The translations under genes were made by a program, and so were the position numbers. A stretch of DNA of 64,000 bases from a bacterium (GTDB lineage: Bacteria; Planctomycetota; UBA1135; UBA2386), in contig JANSXC010000005.1 of NCBI GenBank assembly GCA_024743115.1, forward strand, positions 62,001 to 126,000, written 5' to 3'. A model generated the notes under the pieces. That model made no database searches. It was not told where the DNA came from and saw only the letters and a list, made by a program, of their open reading frames with translations. The number at the start of each line of letters is the position of its first letter. Within the stretch, counting starts at the first letter, position 1. Below are positions 26,972 through 28,374 of the stretch, piece after piece.

Positions 26972-28213
26972 TCAGGAGCCCCAGCGACGGTAGACCCGCG
27001 GGTAGGCTGACGAGCCCTTCGCGCGGCGCTTCTTGCGCTCGGCCTCCTTCTTCTGACGCTCGCGCTCCTTCTTCTGCGCCGCGAGGCGCTTCTTGTTGGA
27101 ACGCGCCGCCGCGTGGAACGCCTTGCCACGGTCGCTGCCCGGGTTGTTGTCGTAGTAGGCGCGGCCGTAGTCGACGAAGGCCTCCATGTCGAAGTCTTCG
27201 AACGCCATGAACGGGCGCTTCGCCATGCGTTCGTGCACAACCTCGCACAGCGGCTTGGCCATGATCTGACCCGAAGCGGACAGCATCGGCTGGCCGTTCT
27301 CGTCGAGCACGAGCGTGTCACGGCGCTGCTTGCGGTTGCGCTTGACCTCTTCCCAGACATCGAAGCCCTGCCAGCGGCTGCGCCGAATCGTCGCGGGCGA
27401 CAGTCGGCGAACCTTGGCGCGATGCATCGCCTGGAACATGCTCTGCTTCTCTCCCTTCGACCGTTCCTGGTCGTCGTAGAGTTCGTGCAGCGTCAGTGCG
27501 AACTTCAGCTCGTCGACGAGATCCTCGGCGTGCCAGAAGCCCGGCAGCACGTGGAGCACGGTGCGATCCGACGCCAGCACGCAGAGCTGCACGTTGCGAC
27601 CACCCGCGCCGTTGGTCGTGCCAACCGCGGAATCCGTCTTCCTGTAGCCGTGGGACAATCCGACGTGCTCGTCCCGCTCGATGTTGCGCGAACCGAGGAT
27701 GAACTCGTCTTGGAGCAGCTGCAGCACTTCTTCATTCGGCAGGGTCACGCCCCGCAAACTTTGAAGCGCGCTTCAAGCACGGTCGTCGAGACAGCCGAGC
27801 GCCTGCAAGAACAGGATCGGCTTGCCCGTCGCGGCCGACTGGGCCTCGAGTTCGAGCATCTGGCCACGCGCGTTGGACTTCTTGACCTCGTGCCAGTCGA
27901 GGTCGAGCACGCGCTCGACGCGCTGCTTCAGCGCGCGTCCCTTGACCTTGACGCCGACGGTCGCCGGGTCGATCACGGGCCGCTTGCGCCGCGGCTTCTT
28001 GTTCTTGGCTGGCTTGTTCTTCTGACCCTTGGTCTGACCGCCCGTCTTGGGCGTGGCCGGGGTCTTCGCGTTGTCGGGCTGCAGCAGGGGCTGAGCCAGC
28101 AACGCAGGATGCTGCACGGGCGATGGCACGACCGGCAGCCCAGGCAACGGCCCGCGTTGGGCCACGGCCATGCCGGCGAGAGCCAGCACGGCGAGCAGGA
28201 CAGGTTGCTTCAT
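26972..28213 (-). CDS. secreted thioredoxin-fold protein with in-frame UGA (candidate selenoprotein)
   Basis: One continuous frame of 413 codons is interrupted only by TGA at 27775-27773 (codon 147). The N-terminal part has a signal peptide (MKQPVLLAVLALAGMAVAQ), a Lys/Pro linker and a thioredoxin-like first strand (TGKPILFLQALGCLDDRA); the frame continues after TGA as SALQSLRGVTLPNEEVLQLLQDEFI, the helix and strand expected next in the fold, then NVQLCVLASDRTVLHVLPG and a Lys/Arg/Glu-rich tail. Each half alone would be half a domain. A 6-bp hairpin begins 18 bases after the UGA. AAGGA precedes the ATG. Readthrough as selenocysteine fits best; a nonsense mutation or two separate ORFs (TTG 27757) are the alternatives. 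Confidence 0.65.
27739..27755 (-). promoter_or_regulatory. candidate bacterial SECIS hairpin
   Basis: On the minus strand GCGGGG pairs with CCCTGC (six pairs, one G-U) around loop CGTGA. The loop begins 23 bases after the UGA and has G as its second base, both compatible with published bacterial SECIS rules. A separate palindrome TTGAAGCGCGCTTCAA (27761-27776) overlaps the UGA itself. Confidence 0.4.
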
Positions 28214-28374
28214 GGGGTCTTCCTTGGTGGCGGTGGGTCGCCGCGGTCCGCTACCTCACGGTCCAGGACGATCGACGTGGGTTGGACCCCGGTCGGCCGA
28301 CGCCGTAAGGAAAGGAACCCGCAAACCTGCCTGCGCAACCGTTACCTGCTGTCAGAGCGACTCTTGTGGATCGC

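Follow-up and report, generated by a model that had tools for sequence, protein, structure and literature searches.

We conclude with high confidence that the window, our name for the whole 64,000-nucleotide stretch of planctomycete DNA analysed here, carries on its reverse strand a gene (26972-28213) that contains a UGA decoded as selenocysteine (Sec) and that yields a thioredoxin-fold product. On the computational evidence, Sec decoding at residue 147 is near-certain. Read on the reverse strand, 26972-28213 is a single frame with one TGA inside: an ATG at 28213 is followed by 146 codons up to the TGA at 27775-27773 (codon 147), and then by 266 sense codons that end at a second TGA (26974-26972), which is the true stop. 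The homologue alignment supports the whole frame as a complete coding sequence of 413 residues including Sec147, and the positions and codon counts on which the original prediction was built all check out in the sequence. A Shine-Dalgarno-like AAGGA (28221-28225), read from the sequence, lies 7 nt before the ATG. By inspection the N-terminus, MKQPVLLAVLALAGMAVAQ (28157-28213), is signal-peptide-like; leaders resembling it occur in many homologues, and the product would be exported. A variable linker rich in Pro, Lys and Gln (27947-28156) leads from the signal peptide to the conserved core. In the alignment and the model, the thioredoxin-fold domain (27473-27895, about residues 107-247) has the Sec codon (27773-27775) at the N-terminal end of its first active-site helix, and it is followed by a conserved helical C-terminal region (27176-27457, about residues 253-346) with the motifs R..WQ.FD, RDT and H.R. 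Next come a DYG..YDNN motif (residues 348-357) and a long, basic, variable C-terminal helix (27008-27115, about residues 367-402). A Pfam search gave no match for the helical C-terminal region.

Is the frame beyond the UGA real? Open length by itself is weak evidence, as the GC-rich window has 256 ORFs of at least 100 aa, and conservation was therefore taken as the test. A search of 101 relatives found homologues in 23 genomes; almost all of these have one in-frame TGA, and in the 23 the coding sequence is conserved on both sides of it. A contig scan with the window protein alone gave no match; the alignment-based scan that followed gave 30 loci. The profile, built from 24 sequences (alignments A1 and A3), matched in 79 of the 392 Planctomycetota genomes sampled, and every strong near-full-length match in that survey carries the TGA. 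Further matches came from eight Melainabacteria/Obscuribacterales contigs and from two bacteria whose phylum is not stated, again all with TGA. Since dozens of genomes assembled independently of one another have the TGA, a sequencing error at this codon is ruled out.

Across 63 aligned loci, drawn from many Planctomycetota families, the Obscuribacterales/Melainabacteria and the two unplaced bacteria, the codon aligned with the window TGA is TGA in 60, TGC in two and TCG in one; the 60 include one locus (L029) whose TGA stands one codon on through a column shift in the automatic alignment, and which reads Cys-Sec. The original prediction, that the UGA encodes Sec where relatives may have Cys, is upheld (Sec in 60/63, Cys in 2/63, Ser in 1/63) and proves to have been understated, since in this phylum-wide family Sec is both ancestral and dominant rather than a rare substitution. 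The three non-Sec copies group in a single clade within the Sec copies (SH-aLRT 96 in a quick tree), which makes Sec ancestral in this sample, with a single loss. In one genome a Sec copy and a Cys copy stand in tandem (G011:C256:59348-61734; L005 and L026), the Cys copy without a SECIS hairpin. Comparison of gene neighbourhoods revealed some loose local synteny among close relatives, no conserved operon, and no operon partner that would point to a substrate.

Two side observations concern gene number and more distant relatives. Some Planctomycetota genomes, G319, G239, G369 and G210 among them, each contain four or five profile matches, most with TGA, which suggests expanded paralogous selenoprotein sets. 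L029 (G026:C72) and L025 (G036:C40) are shorter and only distantly related, and carry Cys-Sec or Sec (ELCUTNA, PFAUTNA); their hairpins are strong, 7-8 bp long, with the loop CGUGCU. They probably represent a second uncatalogued Sec family.

A bacterial SECIS element has been modelled as a stem of 4-16 bp with a loop of 3-9 nt, a G among the first two loop nucleotides, a spacing of 16-37 nt between UGA and loop and a free energy of at most -7.5 kcal/mol (PMC13188914). The window has, at 27755-27739, the hairpin GCGGGG-CGUGA-CCCUGC, which starts at nucleotide 18 after the UGA and fits that model in every respect: a 6-bp stem (GCGGGG/CCCUGC), a 5-nt CGUGA loop (27749-27745) with G then U at loop positions 2-3, a UGA-to-loop distance of 23 nt and an energy of -8.9 kcal/mol. 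The stem length, spacing and loop G are just as had been proposed. The same geometry, at the same offset, is found in 60/60 Sec loci, with an energy at or below the -7.5 limit in 85%, and a comparable hairpin in 0/3 Cys/Ser loci. Mean hairpin energy over the 60 Sec loci is -8.8 kcal/mol, versus -2.7 in synonymous shuffles, a conservative test because the codon pool is drawn from the same genes; per-locus shuffle p-values are mostly 0.005 to 0.1, and the strength of the result lies in recurrence at one offset.

The structure also shows covariation. In 21 Sec sequences the 42 nt after the UGA align without gaps, and the common predicted hairpin pairs columns 18-23 with 29-34; all 126 pair cells are canonical. 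One pair is changed on both sides, from C-G to A-U, in 5/21 sequences. Both changes are synonymous, in an Arg codon (CGG/AGG) and a Leu codon (CTG/CTT), and therefore selection on the protein does not explain them. In the more distant Planctomycetota and in the Obscuribacterales the offset is kept while most of the stem letters differ (GAGAGC...GCUCUC), and the loop is CGUGA(C), CGUGUC or CGGGUC. Scanned against Rfam at gathering thresholds, the window gave no match, so the case for the SECIS rests on geometry and the shuffle test. Two further structures were set aside. A long lower stem predicted in the window (-22.5 kcal/mol, z -3.4) has bases that are not conserved, and we do not claim that it is required. 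A 16-bp palindrome overlapping the UGA, TTGAAGCGCGCTTCAA (27761-27776), is real in the window, as originally noted; homologues lack it, and we reject it as part of the signal and judge it incidental.

The proposed thioredoxin fold is borne out by structure prediction and by profile comparison. An AlphaFold2 model of the core, made from alignment A3 with Sec entered as Cys, has a mean pLDDT of 88.8. Its best Foldseek matches in the PDB are the DsbD C-terminal domain (1vrs_E, probability 1.00, target TM-score 0.71), AGR2 and ERp18; the family is divergent, and the E-values are accordingly modest (best 3e-3). With hhalign, the family aligns to seven Thioredoxin_7-type proteins (UxxC/CxxC) of the same genome at E 1.8e-8, and Sec falls on the first Cys/Sec of their motif. 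In the model Sec147 immediately precedes the helix after the first strand of the core, where thioredoxins have their attacking Cys. The surrounding motif is U-S-A-[L/A/G], and more broadly U-[ST]-x-x across the aligned loci. The site is not a classical CxxC/UxxC site, as the aligned loci have no Cys at +3, and the family alignment has no other conserved Cys. Nor is there a cis-Pro before the third strand: judged by alignment with the paralogues rather than by model coordinates, the column of their invariant Pro holds Val, Leu, Met or Thr. Invariant in the alignment are W107, W227, Q151, Q209, N201 and N207.

What might such a protein do? Since Sec occupies the nucleophile position with no second Cys at +3 and no other conserved Cys, we infer a one-selenol cycle in which the resolving thiol comes from outside the protein. 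The product would be an exported, divergent thioredoxin-fold domain with a helical C-terminal region; the selenolate of Sec147 would attack a disulfide, a peroxide or a similar electrophile, and the intermediate would be resolved in trans by a partner thiol. We hold the role of a one-selenol oxidoreductase outside the cytoplasm to be about an even call. One might think instead of an enzyme that is mainly a peroxidase, akin to peroxiredoxins or glutathione peroxidases, that guards the cell envelope and is not a disulfide or thiol exchange enzyme. A lone Sec that lacks a resolving Cys fits the chemistry of one-Cys peroxidases. The glutathione peroxidase site is a Sec-Gln-Trp-Asn tetrad, and, speculatively, the invariant Trp, Gln and Asn could stabilise the selenolate in the same way. 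In fold, however, the protein comes closest to DsbD-gamma, AGR2 and ERp18 rather than to peroxiredoxins or glutathione peroxidases, and the AhpC-TSA_2 match is weak, found in one member only and outside the Sec region. We regard a mainly peroxidatic role as possible and rather unlikely. Less likely still is an AGR2-like chaperone or isomerase that binds substrates and joins client proteins in mixed bonds through its single chalcogen. Among PDB sequences the family comes nearest, if weakly, to AGR2/AGR3 (E 0.04-0.07), which have a single-Cys CxxS whose Cys aligns with Sec; yet these AGR-type matches are below usual significance, and the keeping of costly Sec argues for catalysis over holding.

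How secure is the reading of the UGA itself? The window genome, a 6.95 Mb draft about 90% complete, was found to have all four components whose presence the original prediction made a check: selA, selB, selD and selC, the gene for tRNA-Sec. The selB scores over its family cut-off, the tRNA-Sec has the anticodon TCA, and selD, directly after selA (G000:C19:18046-20384; L001 and L038), carries an in-frame TGA of its own. Relatives have selA in 41 of 43 genomes tested, and the two without it are drafts less than 75% complete. A selA match is missing in 3/4 tested Obscuribacterales drafts and in the genome of locus L077; selB and tRNA-Sec score above cut-off in 2/3 of those selA-less Obscuribacterales drafts and in the L077 genome, and the third draft (G453) has neither above cut-off. 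We attribute the components missing from these genomes to draft incompleteness.

Could the UGA nevertheless be an ordinary stop, giving a 146-residue secreted product, with the remainder a decaying remnant or a separately started gene? There is a plausible alternative start, an in-frame TTG at 27757. Against this, the downstream part is kept in frame directly after the TGA in dozens of genomes, and it is under constraint similar to that of the upstream part (dN/dS against the nearest relative about 0.48 downstream and 0.59 upstream). Sister copies with TGC or TCG in place of TGA encode a continuous protein, the SECIS occurs only together with the TGA, and the predicted domain spans it; we consider an ordinary stop extremely improbable. 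Stop readthrough or a reassigned code that places another amino acid such as Trp at the UGA is just as improbable. Any code in which TGA stands for an amino acid would leave the frame open, but the Sec system of the genome is complete, two copies have Cys instead, the gene's own end is TGA, and the hairpin fits bacterial SECIS geometry. Under Sec decoding, the hairpin just downstream of the UGA would recruit SelB bound to Sec-tRNA(Sec), this complex would insert Sec at residue 147, and the second UGA, with no conserved coding sequence beyond it, would end translation.

The gene is not alone in its genome. Five further Thioredoxin_7-type genes have one in-frame TGA at the first active-site position (L112, L116, L117, L118 and L120, at C44:45495-45764, C4:93328-93591, C47:74387-74653, C53:63148-63408 and C6:71675-71941), with the active-site motifs VPGUTTC, UGPC, UGSC, UGMC and UPPC; one of the five belongs to the known VPGUxxT type. 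A SECIS-like hairpin (-10 kcal/mol, loop CGUGU) is present in the C4 copy; the same geometry finds none in the C6 copy. These five genes make the organism selenoprotein-rich, and part of the Planctomycetota, our results indicate, has a sizeable exported selenoproteome.

Is the family new? A 2026 catalogue lists 119 prokaryotic selenoprotein families, and none of them, compared by domain or motif, matches (PMC13188914). A search within a limited set of papers, covering main texts and not supplements like the list of planctomycete selenoproteins in PMC4807772, found no description of it. The family is therefore probably uncatalogued, set apart from the listed families by its domain and motif descriptions. 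The larger proposal, which we favour with some reserve, is that this is an uncatalogued, ancestrally selenium-dependent family of secreted one-selenol enzymes that belongs to the core of a large section of the Planctomycetota and occurs in the Obscuribacterales too; Sec would be almost obligatory in it, and the Cys versions the outcome of a single late loss. A widespread family would thereby be added to the prokaryotic selenoproteome. Selenoprotein discovery leans on abundant Cys homologues (PMC12013277). The present family has almost none, which creates an annotation blind spot, and ordinary gene callers would truncate its proteins at the UGA. If the proposal is true, Sec-dominant families would be systematically missed by discovery based on Cys homologues, and the family may carry out chemistry for which a thiol would not suffice. 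The naturally occurring Sec, Cys and Ser versions, the tandem pair among them, offer a ready-made experiment on why a cell bears the cost of selenium.

How does the family stand among known systems? A Pfam search with the window protein gave no match, PF13899 (Thioredoxin_7) included. Thioredoxin_7 is matched weakly by 13 of 24 members (best E 3.8e-5), and its gathering cut-off of 27 bits is not reached, with scores of 16.9 and 18.1 among the matches listed. In an NCBIfam search the window protein had chance matches only, and no selenoprotein model reached its cut-off across the members. The Thioredoxin_7/DsbD C-terminal group resembles the window family in fold, in the position of the attacking residue and in a W...A...KP lead-in before the first strand; the window family differs in lacking the second Cys and the cis-Pro, and in having an extra conserved loop, SHGY...GTTNGAG.RN.Q, and the helical C-terminal region. 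The VPGUxxT selenoproteins (NF041382/NF041383) have Sec at the same thioredoxin-fold position, whereas the window family lacks the VPGU motif; the window protein does not match these models, and the best member reaches 17 bits where the cut-off is 275. The Trx7/PDZ selenoprotein (NF041199), which the NCBIfam search did not match, likewise has a Thioredoxin_7-type fold with Sec. Its motif is listed as CxxU (PMC13188914), while the U of the window family has no Cys partner. The eukaryotic AGR2, AGR3 and ERp18, weakly matched in sequence and structure, have Cys rather than Sec, reside in the ER and lack the C-terminal region of the window family; what AGR2 and AGR3 share with it is a thioredoxin fold built around a single chalcogen.
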